Shown here in pieces: positions 725-45,231 of a DNA stretch of 64,000 nucleotides; within the stretch, counting starts at the first letter, position 1, and each line of letters opens with the position of its first letter. The DNA is taken from the NCBI GenBank assembly GCA_017480785.1, contig JAFURZ010000016.1, positions 124,001 to 188,000 on the forward strand, in the 5' to 3' direction. The notes under the pieces are model-generated. The model was not told where the DNA came from. It searched no databases and saw only the letters and a list, made by a program, of their open reading frames with translations. The position numbers and the translations under genes are program-made. The DNA is from Bacteroidales bacterium (GTDB lineage: Bacteria > Bacteroidota > Bacteroidia > Bacteroidales > P3).

Positions 725-833
725 CCTCCGCCATTTTTACGGTAGTATTACGGTAGTATTACGGTAGTATTACGCTTTTAAAGCGTAATACTACCGTAAT
801 ACTACCGTAATACTACCGTAAAAATGGCGGAGG
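725..833. repeat. Perfect 109-bp palindrome built of an 11-bp unit
   Basis: The two 54-base arms (725-778 and 780-833) are exact reverse complements around a single central base at 779. Each arm carries three copies of the 11-mer acggtagtatt plus a gene-proximal cctccgccattttt segment. It lies between the divergent receptor and Wzz-like genes. A second, interrupted copy of the same family lies at 43377-43436. There is no T-tract of the kind expected for a terminator. Confidence 0.95.
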
Positions 834-1954: not shown

Positions 1955-3406
1955 CTTGGCCTGCTGCTGGCCTTGCTGCTGACGGCGGTGTTCATCGCCG
2001 CCGAGGCGGTGGTGATGTACTGGAAAGGGCCGGGACTGATAGCGCTGGTGCCCCTGGCATTGCTGGTGGTGTGGCTCTTCTACGTGCGGCTCGAGACAGG
2101 CCTGCTGCTGATGGCGCTGCTCACCCCCTTCGCCGTCAACGTGGCCGTCTTCCCCGGCATGGAGCTCTCGATGCCGGTGGAGCCGATGATGATTCTCTTC
2201 TCAGCATTCTTCCTCTTCCGCGTTCTTGTCAGCCAAGGGAGCGGAGTCCACTCTTCACTCTTCACTCATCCAGTGACCCTGCTGCTGCTAGCGGGACTGG
2301 CGTGGTGGGTGGTGACGAGCTGCACCTCGCGCCTGCCGTGGGTGTCGTTCAAGTACCTGCTCTCCCGCCTGTGGTTCGTCATCCCCTTCTACTTCGCCGC
2401 CGCCCTCTTCTTCCGCAACCGCGAGCGCATCCGCCAGTTCTACTGGGCCTATGCCATCGGGCTGGGGGTGGTCATCCTCATCGCCACCGCGAAGACGCTG
2501 GGCAACTTCAGCGACCTGCAGACGCTGCACCGCGTGATGCGCCCCTTCTACAACGACCACACGGCCTACGGCTGCGCCATCGCCCTGATGCTGCCGGCCT
2601 GCATTTATTTCTTAAGTGTAAAGTGGAAAGTGGAAAGTGGAAAGCTTCCGGGTGCGGCAGCAAATCTTTCCACTTTCATCTTTCCACTTCTCATGCTCCT
2701 TCTGCTCTGCGTGGGTCTTTTCTTCAGCTACTGCCGCGCGGCGTGGATAAGCGTGGTGGCGGCGCTGGGCATCTACCTGCTGATACGCCTGGGGATGAAG
2801 GTGAAGTGGATGGTACTGCTCTTCGGTCTGGGCGTGGGCATGTTCTTCGTCTACCAGAGCGACGTGCTCTACCGGCTGGGCAAGAACCACCAGGACAGCA
2901 GCTACACGCTGGCCGACCAGGTGAAGAGCATCTCCAACATCTCGACTGACGCCTCCAACGTGGAGCGCCTCAACCGGTGGGCTTCGGCCATGCGCCTGTG
3001 GAAGGAGAGCCCCGTGGTGGGTGTGGGTCCCGGCACCTACCAGTTCCTCTACGGCAGCTACCAGAAGAGCTACCAGCTCTCCACCATCAGCACCAACGCC
3101 GGCGACCTGGGCAACGCCCACAGCGAGTATATCGGTCCCATGACGGAGCAGGGCCTGCCGGGCGCGCTGCTCGTGGTGGCGCTGTTCCTCACCACCTTCG
3201 CCACCGGCGTGCGCGTCTACCGCACCGCCAAGGACCCCGCCGTGGGTCGCATGGCACTGGCATTCACCCTGAGCCTGCTCACCTACTACGTGCACGGCGT
3301 GTTCAACAACTTCCTCGACACCGACAAACTCTCCGTCCCCTTCTGGGCCTTCACCGCCGCGGTGGTCGCCCTCGACCTGTACTCCGAGAAGAAAGAGGAA
3401 AGATGA
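1883..3406 (+). CDS. O-antigen ligase / Wzy-type polymerase family membrane protein
   Basis: The protein is a polytopic inner-membrane protein of about 485-507 residues with roughly ten hydrophobic helices. It has a large periplasmic loop near the C-terminus (VGVGPGTYQFLYGSYQ; NAHSEYIGPMTEQGLPGALL), the signature of the O-antigen ligase/polymerase (Wzy_C) family, which joins or polymerises surface glycans. The start is uncertain: GTG 1883 reads through a repeat copy, while GTG 1949 at the end of that copy begins directly before the first helix (VRLGLLLALLL). A gtggaaa palindrome at 2614-2689 adds a segment around KWKVESGKLPG in a loop between helices. It overlaps the next gene by ATGA. Confidence 0.8.
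   Translation: MKYQKTHDTPHNPLSNRRGGKGVRLGLLLALLLTAVFIAAEAVVMYWKGPGLIALVPLALLVVWLFYVRLETGLLLMALLTPFAVNVAVFPGMELSMPVEPMMILFSAFFLFRVLVSQGSGVHSSLFTHPVTLLLLAGLAWWVVTSCTSRLPWVSFKYLLSRLWFVIPFYFAAALFFRNRERIRQFYWAYAIGLGVVILIATAKTLGNFSDLQTLHRVMRPFYNDHTAYGCAIALMLPACIYFLSVKWKVESGKLPGAAANLSTFIFPLLMLLLLCVGLFFSYCRAAWISVVAALGIYLLIRLGMKVKWMVLLFGLGVGMFFVYQSDVLYRLGKNHQDSSYTLADQVKSISNISTDASNVERLNRWASAMRLWKESPVVGVGPGTYQFLYGSYQKSYQLSTISTNAGDLGNAHSEYIGPMTEQGLPGALLVVALFLTTFATGVRVYRTAKDPAVGRMALAFTLSLLTYYVHGVFNNFLDTDKLSVPFWAFTAAVVALDLYSEKKEER
2614..2689. repeat. gtggaaa palindrome inserted in the ligase gene
   Basis: The left arm 2614-2644 (aagtgtaaagtggaaagtgg and onward) and right arm 2666-2689 (ctttccactttcatctttcc and onward) can pair across a 21-base loop. 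The element is read in frame without stops (VKWKVESGKLPG ... STFIFPL). Confidence 0.85.
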
Positions 3407-3491
3407 AAGTGGAAAGTGGAAAACGGAAAGATATTGTAATGGTGCTTTGCTCCAGCATAACTTTCATCTTTACACTTTCAACTTTCCACAT
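3403..3491. repeat. gtggaaa palindrome forming the 5' end of the NlpC/P60 gene
   Basis: The left arm (from 3403, gaaagtggaaagtggaaaac) and right arm (about 3459-3489, actttcatctttacactttc and onward) are imperfect inverted copies of the gtggaaa family. The element contains the start codon and most of the signal-peptide region of the gene starting at 3403. Confidence 0.8.
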
Positions 3492-27701: not shown

Positions 27702-30700
27702 ATGTATATGAAATACAACGAATATAAGCAGCTTAATTTGACCCGCATCGGCGAGGAAGTGCGCCGCTACTGGGAAGAAAACGAGACTTTCGAGAAAGGA
27801 CAGAGGCTGAGCGAGGGGCACCCGTCGTTCGTCTTCTACGACGGCCCGCCGTCGGCCAACGGCAAGCCCGGCATCCACCATGTGATGGCCCGCACCATCA
27901 AGGACGTCTTCTGCCGCTACAAGGCGCAGAAGGGCTTCTTTGTGGACCGCAAGGCGGGGTGGGACACCCACGGCCTGCCCGTGGAGCTGGGCGTGGAGAA
28001 GAACCTCGGCATCACCAAGGAGGATATCGGCAAGAAAATCAGCGTTGACGAATACAACCAGGCCTGCCGCACCGAGGTGCTGAAGTACAAGGACCTGTGG
28101 GATGAGCTGACGCGTGTGATGGGCTACTGGGTCGACCTGAAAGAACCCTACATCACCTTCAACAACGAGTATATAGAGACCCTGTGGTTCCTGCTGAAGA
28201 AGCTCTACGACAAGGGGTTGCTCTACAAGGGCTACACCATCCAGCCCTACTCGCCCGCCGCCGGCACGGGCCTCTCGAGCCACGAGTTGAACATGCCCGG
28301 CTGCTACCGCGACGTGAAGGACACCACCTGTGTGGCCATGTTCAAGATAGTGGATAGTGGGGAGTGTGTAGTGGATAGCATTTTCGGTCAAGTGCTACCC
28401 ACTACCCACTACCCACTACCCACTTACGCCATCGCCTGGACCACCACCCCGTGGACCCTGCCCAGCAACACGGCCCTCTGCGTGGGACCCAACATCGACT
28501 ATGTGCTCATCGAGACCACCCACCCCTACACCGAGGAACCCTGCCGCATCATCATGGCCAAGGCCCTGGTGGGCTCGATGTTCCCCGAAGGCAAGAGTCC
28601 CGAGTACAAGGTGGTGGGCGAATGCAAGGGTACCGCGCTGGAGGGGCTGCAGTATGAACAGCTCATCCCCTGGGTGAAGCCCAAGGAGGTGAGCGACAAA
28701 GGCAGCTTCAGGATTATCCTGGGCGACTATGTCACCACCGAGGACGGCACCGGCATCGTGCACATCGCGCCCACCTTCGGTGCCGACGACGCCCGCGTGG
28801 CCAAGAAGGCCGGCATCGGCGAGCTGCTGCTCTTCGACCGCGACGGCAAGCAGATGCCCATGGTCGACAAGCGCGGTCGCTTCGCCCCCATCGAGGAGCT
28901 CGACCCGCAGTGGGTTGCAGAGAATATGAACACCGGGCTTTACGGCCAATACGCCGGCAAGTTCGTCAAGAACGCCTATGATGCCACCAAGACCGAGAAG
29001 GACATGAGCCTCGACGTGGAGCTGGTCATCATGCTCAAGGGCGAGGGCAAGCTCTTCAAGAGTGAGAAGCACACCCACTCCTACCCCCACTGCTGGCGCA
29101 CCGACAAGCCCGTGCTCTACTACCCGCTCGACAGCTGGTTCATCCGCACAACGGCCCTCAAGGACCGCATGATAGAGCTCAACAAGACCATCAACTGGAA
29201 GCCCGAGGCCACCGGCACCGGCCGCTTCGGCAACTGGCTGGAGAACATCGTGGACTGGAACCTCTCGCGCAGCCGCTACTGGGGCACCCCCCTGCCCATC
29301 TGGCGCACCGAGGACGGCAAGGAAGAGAAGTGCATCGGCAGCGTGAAAGAACTCTGCAACGAGATTGAGAAGTCGGTGAAGGCCGGCGTGATGACGCAGG
29401 AGCAGGCCGACAAGCTTGGCTATTCGAGCAACCGCTTCGACCTACACCGCCCCTATATCGACAACGTGGTCCTCGTCAGTCCCAGCGGCAAACCCATGCG
29501 CCGCGAGCCCGACCTGATTGACGTGTGGTTCGACAGCGGCGCCATGCCTTACGCCCAGATACACTACATGGGTGAGGAGTTGCGCAAGGACCAGTTCCCG
29601 GCCGACTTCATCGCCGAAGGCGTGGACCAGACGCGCGGCTGGTTCTACACCCTCCACGCCATCGCCACGATGTGTTTCGACTCGGTGGCTTTCAAGAATG
29701 TCATCTCCAACGGACTGGTGCTCGACAAGAACGGCAACAAGATGAGCAAACGCCTCGGCAACGCCGTCGACCCCTTCGAGACCCTCAGCAAGTATGGTCC
29801 CGACGCCACCCGCTGGTACATGATGACCAACAGCCAGCCGTGGGACAACCTGAAGTTCGACGTCGAAGGCGTCGACGAGGTGCGCCGCAAGCTCTTCGGC
29901 ACCCTCTACAACACCTACTCCTTCTTCGCCCTCTATGCCAACCTCGACGGCTTCGACTACAGCCAGAAGGACCTGCCCATCGCCGAACGACCCGAGATTG
30001 ACCGATGGATACTCAGCGAACTCAACACGCTGGTGAAGACCGTCGAGGACGCCATGGAAGACTATGAGCCCACCCGCGCCGGCCGCGCCATTGGCACCTT
30101 CGTCGACGCCTACCTCAGCAACTGGTACGTCCGCCTCTGCCGCCGCCGCTTCTGGAAGGGCGACATGACACCGGACAAGGTGAGCGCCTACCAGACCCTT
30201 TACACCTGCCTCGAGACCCTGAGCCGCCTCATGGCTCCCATTGCCCCCTTCTTCAGCGAGCGCCTCTTCCTCGACCTCAACGCCGTCACCCATCGCTTCG
30301 ATGCCGAGAGCGTGCACCACCTGCCGTTCCCCGAAGTGCATGACGAGATGGTCGACAAGAGCCTTGAGGAGCGCATGCAGCTGGCGCAGAAGGTATGCTC
30401 CATGGTACTCGGCCTGCGCAAGAAGAGCAACCTGCGTGTGCGTCAGCCGCTACAGAAGATAGTCATCCCCGTGCGCGACGAAGCCATGCGGGCTCAAATC
30501 GAGAAGGTGCAACACCTCATCTGCTCCGAACTCAACGTCAAGACCGTGGAGTTCCTGGCAGCCGACAACGACCTGCTGGTGAAACGCATCAAGCCCAACT
30601 TCAAGACCCTCGGCCCACGCTACGGCAAGATAATGAAATCCCTCGGCAACGCCATCATGGCCTTCAGCCAGCAGGAGATTAACGCCCTTGAAGCCAACGG

Positions 30701-32238: not shown

Positions 32239-32980
32239 CCTTGGCCTGCACGTGGTGGGGCGCCGACCTGACGGCTACCACAATCTGGAGACCCTCTTCC
32301 TGCCGGTGCATGACCTGCACGACGAGCTGGAAATCACCGAGGGACCTCTAACCATGCAGCAGGACGGCATCGCACTCGACAGCGCGCCCGAGGACAACCT
32401 CTGCATGAAAGCCTGGCGCTTGCTGCACGACGGTTATGGCATTCCCACCGTCAGCATCCGCCTGAAGAAAGGCATCCCCTTTGGCGCCGGATTGGGAGGA
32501 GGCTCGTCAGACGCCGCCTTCACCCTGAGGATGCTCAACGAGTTGTTCTCCCTCGGGCTGGGTGTGGCCGACATGGAGCAATGCGCCGCCCGACTCGGCG
32601 CCGACTGCGCCTTCTTCGTCCAGAACCGCCCCGCCTACGCCACCGGCATCGGCGACCAGTTGAAGCCAATAGAGTGGAAAGATGAAAGTGGAAAGTGGAA
32701 AGTGGTTATCGAAATCCCCGCTGGCGAGCACGTCAGCACCAAGGAGGCTTACGGCGGGTTGCACCGCGACCTCTTTGGCACCCCACGCCCCGACCTGCGG
32801 GAAGCCGTCAAACGGCCAGTCGAGGAGTGGCGCCAACTTATCGTCAACGACTTCGAGGCCTCGGTCTTCCCCTCCCACCCCGCCATCGCCGCCCTCAAGG
32901 AGGACATGTACCGCCGCGGCGCCCTCTACGCCTCCATGACCGGTAGCGGTGCCGCCGTCTTCGGCATCTTCCCCAAATAA
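32210..32980 (+). CDS. ispE: 4-diphosphocytidyl-2-C-methyl-D-erythritol kinase
   Basis: IspE phosphorylates CDP-ME in the MEP isoprenoid pathway. It has GHMP-kinase motifs: NCKINLGLHVVGRRPDGYHN, PFGAGLGGGSSDAAF and YASMTGSGAAVFGIF. ATG 32210 is preferred over the in-frame GTG at 32204; either overlaps phoH by about 30 bases. Residues around EWKDESGKWKVV are encoded by a gtggaaa array (32672-32705) placed between the middle strands. The inserted peptide KDESGKWK also occurs in the Wzz-like protein. Confidence 0.93.
   Translation: MTTYPNCKINLGLHVVGRRPDGYHNLETLFLPVHDLHDELEITEGPLTMQQDGIALDSAPEDNLCMKAWRLLHDGYGIPTVSIRLKKGIPFGAGLGGGSSDAAFTLRMLNELFSLGLGVADMEQCAARLGADCAFFVQNRPAYATGIGDQLKPIEWKDESGKWKVVIEIPAGEHVSTKEAYGGLHRDLFGTPRPDLREAVKRPVEEWRQLIVNDFEASVFPSHPAIAALKEDMYRRGALYASMTGSGAAVFGIFPK
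32672..32705. repeat. gtggaaa array in frame inside ispE
   Basis: The array gagtggaaagatgaaagtgg and following gaaagtgg units is a direct (one-armed) array of the gtggaaa family. It encodes EWKDESGKWKV. Confidence 0.85.
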
Positions 32981-43542: not shown

Positions 43543-44139
43543 ATGAAACGCACTCTTGCAATAGTTCTCATGCTGTTGGCCAGCAGCACGATGTTCGGCC
43601 AGCAGGTGGCTTCGCGCGCCAAGGCCCTGCGCATGCTGGCGTTCAGCCGCCCGGAGTACCAGATTAAGGACATCAAGGTCTATACCGACACGATGACGGT
43701 CTACTCGCTGTCGCGCTCGGTGATTTATCCTTTCGGCGAATGGAAGTCGGTGGAGCAGTACATCACCGACAACCAGCTGCACTGGTATCGCGAGCAGAGC
43801 TACCGCCACTACTACGACTCGATGGAGGTGAGCGTGAACCGCATGCGGCGGGTCGACGACAGCTACATAGACCTCTACTACAGCATCTGGACCAAGCAGG
43901 TGGAGCTATTGAGCGGCTACGTGGCCGACCCGGAGATAGTGCTCGACAACGGGTTGCACGTGGGCATGTCGAAGGACGACGTGTTCAACGTCTTTTTCAA
44001 GAAGTACCCGCGGTCGTACACTTCGGACATCGCGGTGCTGAAGGTCATCAGCGGCGCCGGCGAGGTGGCCGAGATATACACCTTCAAGGGCACCAAGCTG
44101 CGTCACATCAAGATAGAGACGGCATACAAGTATTATTAG
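43543..44139 (+). CDS. Secreted hypothetical protein
   Basis: The 198-residue product has a signal peptide (ending STMFGQ) and an alpha/beta soluble region with GLHVGMSKDDVFNVFF near the C-terminus, a weak lipoprotein-SmpA-like theme (GMSKDEV). No family recognised. The stop TAG (44137-44139) is the first three bases of the left terminal repeat of the cassette at 44137-44644, so the present 3' end may have been set by that insertion. Confidence 0.6.
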   Translation: MKRTLAIVLMLLASSTMFGQQVASRAKALRMLAFSRPEYQIKDIKVYTDTMTVYSLSRSVIYPFGEWKSVEQYITDNQLHWYREQSYRHYYDSMEVSVNRMRRVDDSYIDLYYSIWTKQVELLSGYVADPEIVLDNGLHVGMSKDDVFNVFFKKYPRSYTSDIAVLKVISGAGEVAEIYTFKGTKLRHIKIETAYKYY

Positions 44140-44644
44140 TGGGTAGTGGGTAGTGGGTAGTGGGTAGCACATGACCATAGTGTTACCACCTGTTCATTAT
44201 CCATTATCCACCGCAAATGGCAGTAGATAACAATGACAGTCAAGAACTACAGGGAGCTCATCGTTTGGCAGAAGTCAATGACTGCCACTACAATGCTATA
44301 TTCTCTGGTTAGGAAATTGCCCAAGGAAGAGCTCTTTGCTCTGTCTGACCAGATGCGCCGCTGTGCAGTATCTATTCCCTCGAACATAGCTGAGGGGCAA
44401 CAACGCACTAGTGCAGCCGAGTTCTTGAAGTTCATTTCCTATGCACAAGGTTCAAGGGCGGAGCTGGAGACCCAACTACAGCTATGCGTTTCTATCGGAT
44501 ACTTGACAGAAGACGACATCACCGACTTAATGGTTCTTCTGGAGGAGATAAACAAAATGCTGTCTTCTCTTGTCAAGGCGTTGACCTCTTCCAAATAACA
44601 ACGCTCGAGAATGCTACCCACTACCCACTACCCACTACCCACTA
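44137..44644. mobile_element. Cassette with 32-bp perfect inverted arrays around a four-helix-bundle gene
   Basis: The left array 44137-44168 is four tagtggg units plus tagc. The right array 44613-44644 is its exact reverse complement. They enclose 444 bases with one gene (44233-44598) and a small attatcc array (44191-44211). The left array contributes the stop of the upstream gene and the right array encodes the N-terminus of NadD (start at 44611). A gene-less palindrome of the same units sits in ileS. No transposase or direct target repeats are seen, so mobility is inferred from architecture. Confidence 0.75.
44233..44598 (+). CDS. Four-helix-bundle protein (23S IVS / S23 family)
   Basis: The 121-residue helical protein reads NYRELIVWQKSMTATTMLYS, RRCAVSIPSNIAEGQQRTS and EFLKFISYAQGSRAELETQL, the signature of the S23/IVS four-helix-bundle family (TIGR02436 type). 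Members occur inside 23S rRNA intervening sequences and, as Avd relatives, beside diversity-generating retroelements; no retroelement is here. GC is clearly lower than in neighbours. The gene is bracketed by perfect 32-bp inverted arrays, suggesting it is cargo or a mobility factor of that element. No named function can be assigned. Confidence 0.88.
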   Translation: MTVKNYRELIVWQKSMTATTMLYSLVRKLPKEELFALSDQMRRCAVSIPSNIAEGQQRTSAAEFLKFISYAQGSRAELETQLQLCVSIGYLTEDDITDLMVLLEEINKMLSSLVKALTSSK

Positions 44645-45231
44645 AAAAAAAGAGCACCGCTCTTTTTTTCGGGTCCTTCAATCCGATACACGTCGGGCAC
44701 CTGATTATTGCCAACACGATGCTGCAGCAGGAGGGCATCGACGAGGTGTGGCTGGTGCCGTCGCCCCAGAACCCCCTGAAGGAGCGTTCCACGCTGCTGG
44801 CCGACCATCACCGGCTACAGATGGCGCAGCGGGCGGTGGAGGACAACTACCGTCTGCGGGTGTGCGACATCGAGATGCACCTGCCGGTGCCGAGCTACAC
44901 GGTGGTGACCCTGGCGGCGCTGGCCGAGAAGTATCCCGGGCGGGAGTTCTGCCTGGTCATGGGGAGCGACAACCTGGCCACCCTGCACCGCTGGCGCAAC
45001 TACGAGTACATCCTCAACAACTACTGCCTGATGGTCTATCCCCGGCCGGGGTCGGAGCGGTGCGAGCTGCGCAACCACCCGTCGGTGACCATGGTCGACG
45101 TGCCGATGATGGACATCAGCAGCAGCTACATCAGGCAACAGATTGCCGCCGGCAAGGATGTGCGCTACCTGCTCACCGAGCCGGTGTACCGCTACCTCAC
45201 GGAGATGCACTTCTACGAAGAAAGGTTATAG
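44611..45231 (+). CDS. nadD: Nicotinate-nucleotide adenylyltransferase
   Basis: NadD adenylates nicotinate mononucleotide in NAD synthesis. Motifs GSFNPIHVGHLIIAN and ISSSYIRQQI are intact in 206 residues. The N-terminus MLPTTHYPLPTKKKSTALFF is odd: LPTTHYPLPT is encoded by the right array of the neighbouring cassette (same peptide as in IleS). Relatives start close to KK-ALFFGSFNP, so the original start codon has probably been replaced. The stop TAG lies in a ggttata array (45221-45246). A hairpin aaaaaagagc/gctctttttt lies over codons 12-22. Confidence 0.93.
   Translation: MLPTTHYPLPTKKKSTALFFGSFNPIHVGHLIIANTMLQQEGIDEVWLVPSPQNPLKERSTLLADHHRLQMAQRAVEDNYRLRVCDIEMHLPVPSYTVVTLAALAEKYPGREFCLVMGSDNLATLHRWRNYEYILNNYCLMVYPRPGSERCELRNHPSVTMVDVPMMDISSSYIRQQIAAGKDVRYLLTEPVYRYLTEMHFYEERL

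Follow-up and report, generated by a model that had tools for sequence, protein, structure and literature searches.

Small S23-family genes between inverted arrays of short units look like an undescribed family of mobile DNA in Bacteroidales and other bacteria

In RAYT/REPIN systems the gene of a Y1/HUH transposase is flanked by inverted copies of a repeat, and the same repeat is also scattered through the genome without a gene. The Foldback elements of Drosophila, such as Galileo, occur as nearly complete, two-TIR and solo-TIR copies, and exchange between copies takes place mainly in the TIRs, according to the sections of PMC3573991 available to us. S23 open reading frames have been known since the early 1990s from rRNA intervening sequences, without a function; the S23 intervening sequence of Coxiella is 428 nt long, has terminal inverted repeats and is presumed to be selfish, a role of the S23 ORF in mobility is a hypothesis only, and the S23 protein of Xanthomonas is cited as a toroidal homopentamer (available part of PMC4990558).

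Arrays of 7-nt units form a separate literature. GGGAATC arrays in Xanthomonas and GGGGA(C/T)T arrays in Nostoc have been described without a role being settled; in two Xanthomonas genomes the arrays mostly have four units, and convergent inverted pairs number 70 and 75 (PMC4692102, in part). TAACTGA arrays occur in Beggiatoaceae, Cyanobacteria and Bacteroidetes; proteins of the S1, Csp and Csr families have been proposed to bind them and the mechanism was left open (PMC4679880, in part). The available portions of these two accounts do not mention S23, and that on TAACTGA has no four-helix protein either. Among the matches listed in the open-licence literature we found no description of S23 genes with array ends, so an earlier account may exist.

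The DNA analysed here, called the window below, is a stretch of 64,000 nt from a Bacteroidales bacterium. It contains a class A gene (see below) for an S23/IVP four-helix-bundle protein of 121 aa (44233-44598, + strand), which matches PF05635 with 130 bits (E=4.6e-38) and also TIGR02436 in profile searches. The gene lies between a left arm (44136-44169, + strand) and a right arm (44612-44645, - strand) that are perfect 34-nt reverse complements according to the sequence, repeat finders and a script; each consists of 4.4 copies of TAGTGGG plus TAGCA, the latter at the end of the left arm. The initial annotation had reported exact inverted TAGTGGG arrays of 32 nt around a lower-GC gene of the S23/IVS family, touching both neighbours. 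All of this holds, the arms being slightly longer than claimed. GC is about 0.475 over the gene versus 0.56-0.65 in its surroundings. The upstream ORF (43543-44139, + strand, 198 aa, no Pfam match in a profile search) has its stop codon within the left arm, its TAG being the start of the first unit. The ORF of nadD (44611-45231, + strand, TIGR00482) starts within the right arm, which codes for the N-terminus of NadD, while in relatives free of the insert the start coincides with the upstream stop codon. A small ATTATCC array reported earlier is present and weak (CATTATC, 2.3 copies, score 32, 44195-44210, + strand); our reading does not depend on it.

As single-stranded DNA the element is predicted to fold with z = -8.8, and none of 100 shuffles folded equally well. 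Its protein is homologous to PDB entries 2gsc (E=2.5e-21) and 2rld (E=2.9e-9), which have five chains each. Avd-type matches of the gene are weak and below cut-off (PF22296, E=4e-8; NF033474, E=2e-8). Apart from PF05635, TIGR02436 and these bAvd-like matches, profile searches of the element returned nothing: no transposase or recombinase domain and no Y1 HUH domain.

We think it probable that these roughly 510 bp are a minimal mobile element, made up of one S23-family gene and two inverted unit arrays as ends, which would move and would be recognised by a ring of its own protein. What sequence comparison demonstrates is that the element exists, that it has boundaries and empty sites, that it recurs in several phyla and that its unit co-varies with its protein; that it moves, we infer. 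With the 23S rRNA intervening sequences of Leptospira, Coxiella and others it has in common the S23 protein, a similar size and terminal inverted repeats able to form a stem. Those sequences are sited in rRNA, the location that defines them, whereas the window copy has an ORF on one side and nadD on the other; S23 elements also have several intergenic copies per genome and gene-less derivatives, and their ends are tandem unit arrays that are specific to the copy and co-vary with the protein. The likeness to RAYT/REPIN is that the end repeat is also dispersed without a gene, and Y1 genes with palindromic ends coexist in these genomes; however, S23 has no HUH/Y1 domain, the ends are four to five tandem units instead of one palindrome, and the unit varies from copy to copy within one genome. 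Internally repetitive inverted ends and solo-end derivatives give S23 elements a Foldback-like architecture, but Foldback/Galileo is eukaryotic with a transposase of the P superfamily, to which the very small S23 protein is unrelated. The S23 element thus works like RAYT/REPIN or Foldback elements and is a member of neither. The Avd protein of diversity-generating retroelements is a related four-helix-bundle protein, as the weak PF22296 and NF033474 matches indicate; beside the S23 gene of the window there are inverted arrays and no reverse transcriptase. As in a classical IS or DNA transposon, terminal inverted repeats bound a unit for which empty sites exist, but there is no recognisable transposase or recombinase. 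The described heptamer arrays resemble S23 arms in their 7-nt units, mostly intergenic location, inverted pairs and, in Xanthomonas, about four units; we propose that these arrays, those of Xanthomonas and Beggiatoaceae included, may be linked to S23.

In the genome to which the window belongs (G000; 2.25 Mb, 92% complete), seven genes match PF05635. Six lie between inverted short-unit arrays with six different units (TAGTGGG, GTTTACC, GTGAATA, AACGAT-like, GAAAGTG and ATTTCTA), the arms being 20-44 nt long and spaced 392-452 nt apart. The seventh, L007, has no flanking inverted arrays. It belongs to class B, low-scoring genes with longer open frames (152-208 aa) that occur once each in 24 of 25 genomes of the genus. 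Class A comprises genes above 65 bits, a cut between A and B that was chosen after the gap in scores had been seen, and genomes of the genus have from 0 to 12 of them. PF05635 is present in 35 of the 41 genomes of genus and order.

Flanking arms were sought at 75 of the 99 class A loci listed (59 of 73 in the genus and 16 of 26 outside it) and at 21 of the 24 class B loci of the genus, L094 having just 40 nt of right flank. An ungapped test takes the best inverted match between the two 300-nt flanks of a gene and passes a score of at least 14; the window locus scores 34. By this test 59 of the 75 class A loci are flanked, with units of 6-11 nt and varied sequence: 50/59 in the genus and 9/16 in other families of the order. 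The nulls are 22/900 for mispaired loci, 1/203 for loci mispaired within one genome and 1/225 for a shuffled flank; among the remaining ORFs of 95 aa or more in the sampled stretches 8/688 pass (9/689 with the window element), and of the class B loci none does (0/21). An array-aware test (flanks of 250 nt, 270 nt for the phylum sample and 400 nt for Y1) gives 48/59 for class A in the genus versus 10/295 mispaired, and 9/15 in the order outside the genus versus 0/75 mispaired, L036 being left out; it is passed by 6/694 other ORFs, by none of the 21 genes of class B, a conserved paralogue, and by none of 20 Y1 transposase genes. The mispaired, shuffled and other-ORF controls rule out a chance origin of the arms. 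Ordinary terminator hairpins were rejected as the main reading, since the arms enclose the gene, in G000 at the distances given above, and co-vary with it. By eye, several loci below the threshold have degenerate or one-sided arrays.

The family extends well beyond the order. PF05635 was found at E<=1e-15 in 105 of 148 Bacteroidota genomes, against none of the 14 control genomes of that search. The inverted-array pattern is weaker in this phylum-wide sample, where 13/30 loci pass the ungapped test and 7/30 the array-aware one versus 4/150 mispaired. In named genomes, for the best 80 of 496 confirmed loci, the corresponding figures are 51/80 versus 30/400 mispaired and 52/80 versus 51/400; mispaired matches are frequent here because AGTGGTT-type units are common to several phyla, and the 80 include L177 and L184, which are repeats of L010 and L008 (both are also among the 110 elements used for unit counts below). 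Passing loci within these best 80 of 496 belong to Bacteroidota, Clostridia and relatives, Selenomonadaceae, Treponema/Spirochaetaceae, Fibrobacter, Omnitrophota, Anaerolineaceae and beta- and deltaproteobacteria, and those of Verrucomicrobia, Chlorobiota and Synergistaceae score 8-12, below the threshold. The expectation that related S23 genes would be flanked by arrays is supported by the class A loci and by the named genomes. As a general rule it holds for the genus, the order and the named genomes, but not for the Bacteroidota-wide sample, where under half of the loci pass.

Where does the unit end? There are 340 pairs of elements with at least 200 nt in common, 31 of which also have common flanks (same site) and 309 of which are at different sites. 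In the latter, homology extends beyond the arms of both partners by no more than 24 nt on the left side and 6 nt on the right side, with a sorting cut-off of 60. Most of the 309 pairs are homologous over the gene only, the left arm being reached in 37 and the right in 12. Homology runs from arm to arm in five (L062/L064, L012/L037, L162/L163, L008/L232 and L182/L213, within 28 nt), and all four ends of L062/L064 coincide within 1 nt. Judged from these alignments, the arms are the ends of the putative mobile unit.

Both arrays of an element have the same unit, read inward, and left arms are mostly purine-rich (48/59). Protein identity and unit similarity go together: the Mantel r is 0.277 over 59 elements including same-site pairs and 0.289 with one element per site (n=47), neither value being reached in 2000 permutations, in a test that ignores phylogeny. 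When units are compared on opposite strands r is 0.026, i.e. the covariation exists in the same orientation only. Among elements at distinct sites, the nine pairs with at least 70% protein identity have a mean unit similarity of 0.62, versus 0.10 for pairs below 30%. The initial annotation had supposed that gene and arrays travel together, and both the distinct-site covariation and the confinement of homology within the arms between sites speak for it.

An array was found in 217 of the 220 arms of 110 elements. The median copy numbers are 5.1, 4.57, 4.5, 4.56, 4.2 and 4.14 for units of 6, 7, 8, 9, 10 and 11 nt (n = 8, 166, 21, 7, 11 and 4, double and triple periods having been folded to the unit), and the median array length rises from about 30 to 45 nt with unit length. 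Hence arms are fixed in unit number (about 4-5) and not in length. At least seven elements (L012, L013, L016, L017, L037, L040 and L041) have the inner ends GGACAA ... TTGTCC or a near form, and these have longer (9-12 nt) or irregular units. The motif CTGACGC/GCGTCAG is enriched at inner ends (7 inner flanks versus 0.59 expected), which we treat as a lead only; in the window the 9-mer GGCTGACGC is no more frequent than expected by chance.

The S23 copies look strongly constrained, as expected from purifying selection: in eight pairs pN is 0.07-0.24 versus pS 0.72-0.92, dS being saturated in seven, and the window gene compared with L157 has pN 0.13 and pS 0.92. A few copies are broken; internal stops occur in L044, L046 and L048.

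Three insertion sites were read closely, and all are directly behind stop codons. At the nadD junction (30 genus loci, out of 53 genomes with a NadD match) an S23 match is found in the window's own genome alone. Relatives were to be compared for empty sites, and clear ones exist: in at least 11 of the 29 others the upstream stop codon overlaps the nadD start. At least 8 further relatives have arrays of other units without S23. RUG12227 and RUG197 have the window insertion at the identical site, and the insertion therefore predates those species. By eye, no target-site duplication is evident at nadD against the relatives read, which need not show the empty site of the immediate ancestor. At serC-serA, S23 elements with different arm sequences are present in 5 of 30 loci, one of them truncated and one from another subfamily; in G002 the site is occupied by a gene-less array hairpin, and the remaining 24 loci, none with an S23 match, have short gaps, other repeats or hairpins (two have no serC in view). 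A third site with empty counterparts in relatives is pyrC, where the right array forms an in-frame part of the host gene; G051 has the two arrays there and no S23. No other case tells so clearly against a strict rule that arms go with the gene, and it means that arrays can exist apart from S23.

It is here that an alternative has to be weighed, in which the arrays are independent repeats, products of slippage, and S23 homes into such pre-existing hairpins by inserting between or beside matching units. The G051 arrays, the arrays of other units at the nadD junction and the abundance of gene-less hairpins (14 have loops no longer than 150 nt) are what homing would lead one to see. If it were correct, though, at least 11 of the 29 nadD relatives would offer no room for an array to home into, the five different-site pairs would have to explain why homology spans both arms and ends at their outer limits, and distinct-site copies would have to explain why unit and protein co-vary. 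We consider homing unlikely.

If the arrays are instead ends of a mobile element, gene-less copies may be its derivatives. Four such features lie in the window: an inverted hairpin AAGTGGA / TCCACTT (2614-2694, no strand assigned), whose unit resembles that of the genome's own S23 element L005; another of GTGGAAA-type / ACTTTCC (3387-3489, no strand assigned); a pair of GATAGTG followed by CTACCCA x4.3, given by a repeat finder and similar in kind of unit to the window arms (28346-28424, no strand assigned); and a solo array of AGTGGAA x4.7 (32673-32705, + strand). Stretches of 10-140 kb from each of 25 genus genomes were scanned for arrays. Genomes with more class A copies have a higher density of 7-nt arrays (Spearman rho 0.62, p 0.0009, phylogeny being ignored here too) and of 7-, 8- and 10-nt arrays pooled (rho 0.54, p 0.005); 8-nt and 10-nt arrays taken alone give 0.26 and 0.17, not significant, and 11-nt arrays show no relation (rho 0.03). 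The period-11 arrays of G000 (the TTACGGTAGTA family) were accordingly set aside as a separate repeat that does not track S23 number. Of 174 solo arrays, 52 match an arm from the genome in which they lie, versus 15.1 expected from an equal number of foreign arms; 46 of the 52 come from G000, G002, G007 and G011, and six of 12 genomes have no such match. Inverted array pairs enclose at most 150 nt in 14 of 16 cases, and the window element is one of the two that enclose more. Some arrays occur in genomes free of class A (5 per 100 kb in G009 and 10 in G019), and G003, G005, G017, G018 and G023, with one to three class A copies, have none in the 17-40 kb sampled. The earlier suggestion that S23 helps to spread or amplify arrays is consistent with the relation to copy number and with the own-arm matches; as to cause, both are correlations.

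Could the arrays be mobilised in trans by another enzyme, a reverse transcriptase or a Y1/RAYT transposase, with S23 as cargo or as a cofactor like Avd in diversity-generating retroelements? The distant relation of S23 to Avd (PF22296 and NF033474, below cut-off) fits this idea, and so do the Y1 transposases found in 19 of 25 genomes searched, whose genes we take to be those named RAYT/REP. Yet of the 16 genus genomes searched 11 lack any RVT_1 match, class A carriers among them: G002 (12 copies, 98% complete), G001, G004 and G014, as well as the less complete G006, G007, G008 and G011; G000 has one marginal match, on another contig (G000:C16). Y1 has no match in G006 (seven class A copies, 72% complete) and G008 (five class A copies, 88% complete), and the Y1 genes have flanking inverted repeats of their own, non-tandem and palindromic in 17 of 20 (e.g. 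GCCCCGTAGGGGC...CCGTGGG) and tandem in 0 of 20. Mobilisation in trans by either enzyme seems quite improbable to us.

The predicted hairpin might also act in RNA. The element would then resemble an rRNA intervening sequence, and its arms would serve as a transcript stem (an RNase III substrate or the boundary of an mRNA) instead of as ends of DNA; in Coxiella, RNase III cuts the stem that the terminal inverted repeats of the S23 intervening sequence form (PMC4990558, available part). A stem, however, needs neither tandem units nor a constant number of them, mismatches between arms show no excess of G-U on the S23 sense strand (33 G-T versus 53 A-C), and none of 20 array-poor S23 loci matches an rRNA model, all of which makes the RNA reading very doubtful. 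Scarcely credible, finally, is a host regulatory module with S23 as a repeat-binding regulator of neighbour genes and the arrays as its operators: arrays do adjoin start or stop codons at the sites read, and there is a proposal that heptamer arrays located upstream of start codons are sites of post-transcriptional action (PMC4679880, in part), but copy number varies from 0 to 12 within the genus, sites differ, empty sites are common and copies with internal stops exist (the three named above).

Several speculative steps can be suggested for the mobile element that we favour. Our best inference is that the S23 ring recognises the unit and also acts in trans on gene-less arrays. The homopentameric ring would recognise its own arm, perhaps with one subunit per unit; a ring of five subunits reading one unit each would give about 4-5 units per arm. 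Recognition may take place on DNA able to fold into a hairpin, and both ends would thereby be brought close to each other. The targets of S23 would be the element that encodes it and also, in trans, gene-less hairpins similar to MITEs or REPINs, with spread or amplification as the outcome. The strands might be cut by host replication or repair while S23 holds the ends, or by an unrecognised activity of S23. Slippage and template switching between the arms could keep them alike while the unit drifts.

A wider conjecture can be made, which we regard as tentative and somewhat less likely to be true than false. S23 elements may form a pan-bacterial mobile class, in which a non-catalytic pentameric ring counts about 4-5 units per inverted end, and ring specificity and unit coevolve to give many mutually blind subfamilies per genome. 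The heptamer arrays of cyanobacteria, Xanthomonas and Beggiatoaceae would be its gene-less offspring, and rRNA intervening sequences one specialised branch.

The elements look like an undescribed family of mobile DNA, one that would tie S23/IVP genes ('four helix bundle protein'), common in Bacteroidota, to the heptamer arrays of several phyla. They may account for puzzling 7-nt repeats scattered through many bacterial genomes, and they offer a hypothesis for the origin of rRNA intervening sequences and of the Avd of diversity-generating retroelements. Parts of the S23 family become testable, as a small protein of known ring structure is paired with the short unit that it should recognise. With unit and protein changing together at several loci per genome, nature would have supplied a library for a new code of nucleic-acid recognition. 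The elements would represent a new mode of DNA mobility if they move without a transposase.

Phage records gave no S23 match. Plasmid-borne S23 genes are mostly cyanobacterial (28 records), and 6 of the 10 cyanobacterial plasmid loci inspected among these records have arms. One plasmid S23 gene lies between cas6 and cas4 in a type I-D CRISPR locus of Anabaena sp. 90.

The motif CTGACGC / GCGTCAG adjoins the arms of S23 elements at their inner ends (L006, L010, L025, L047, L048, L072 and L074). It is found at 7 inner flanks, where 0.59 would be expected, and the elements that carry it are built from different units. The same motif also lies inside the loops of gene-less hairpins, i.e. inverted array pairs that enclose no S23 gene (L254 and L268). 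At L017, L038, L041, L048 and L056, the right arm and its tail are tandemly duplicated downstream of the S23 gene, as if the right end of the element amplifies.

The serC-serA intergenic site is a hot spot for S23 elements. It is occupied in different species (L337, L354, L359, L360 and L361) by elements whose arms differ, one of them belonging to another S23 subfamily. In an Anabaena plasmid, an element with AGGTGAC-type arms is located between cas6 and cas4 of a type I-D CRISPR-cas operon (L238). Some arrays are read as protein. The NadD N-terminus in three genomes (window 44611-44652, L157 and L158) includes MLPTTHYPLPTKKK, and that of dihydroorotase (pyrC) in two (L307 and L316) includes FHFPLSTFHLQ, both encoded in frame by the array.

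The conserved, low-scoring S23 paralogue of class B is present as one copy in 24 of 25 genus genomes (L007, L077-L096), with open frames of 152-208 aa, and no inverted arrays were found at these loci. This paralogue may be an S23 protein that has been domesticated and now serves the host.

Two other kinds of repeat deserve mention. Hairpins of the 11-nt units TTACGGTAGTA / CGTAATACTAC recur across the window's own genome as homogeneous copies (window 737-821; L247, 9946-10030; L248, 17191-17275; L249, 16578-16662; L250, 12784-12864; L251, 7819-7899). Arrays of 11-nt units do not follow the number of S23 genes, and these hairpins probably form a REP-like family of their own. Palindromic repeats with CCGTGGG cores, in inverted orientation, are found on both sides of Y1 (IS200-like) transposase genes (L368, L369, L372, L376, L383 and L386), in what looks like a RAYT/REP system existing in parallel with the S23 arrays of the same genomes. 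In the genus relative G002, a Y1 match (C3:74588-74878) lies about 1 kb from the S23 element L051, a proximity that is possibly due to chance.
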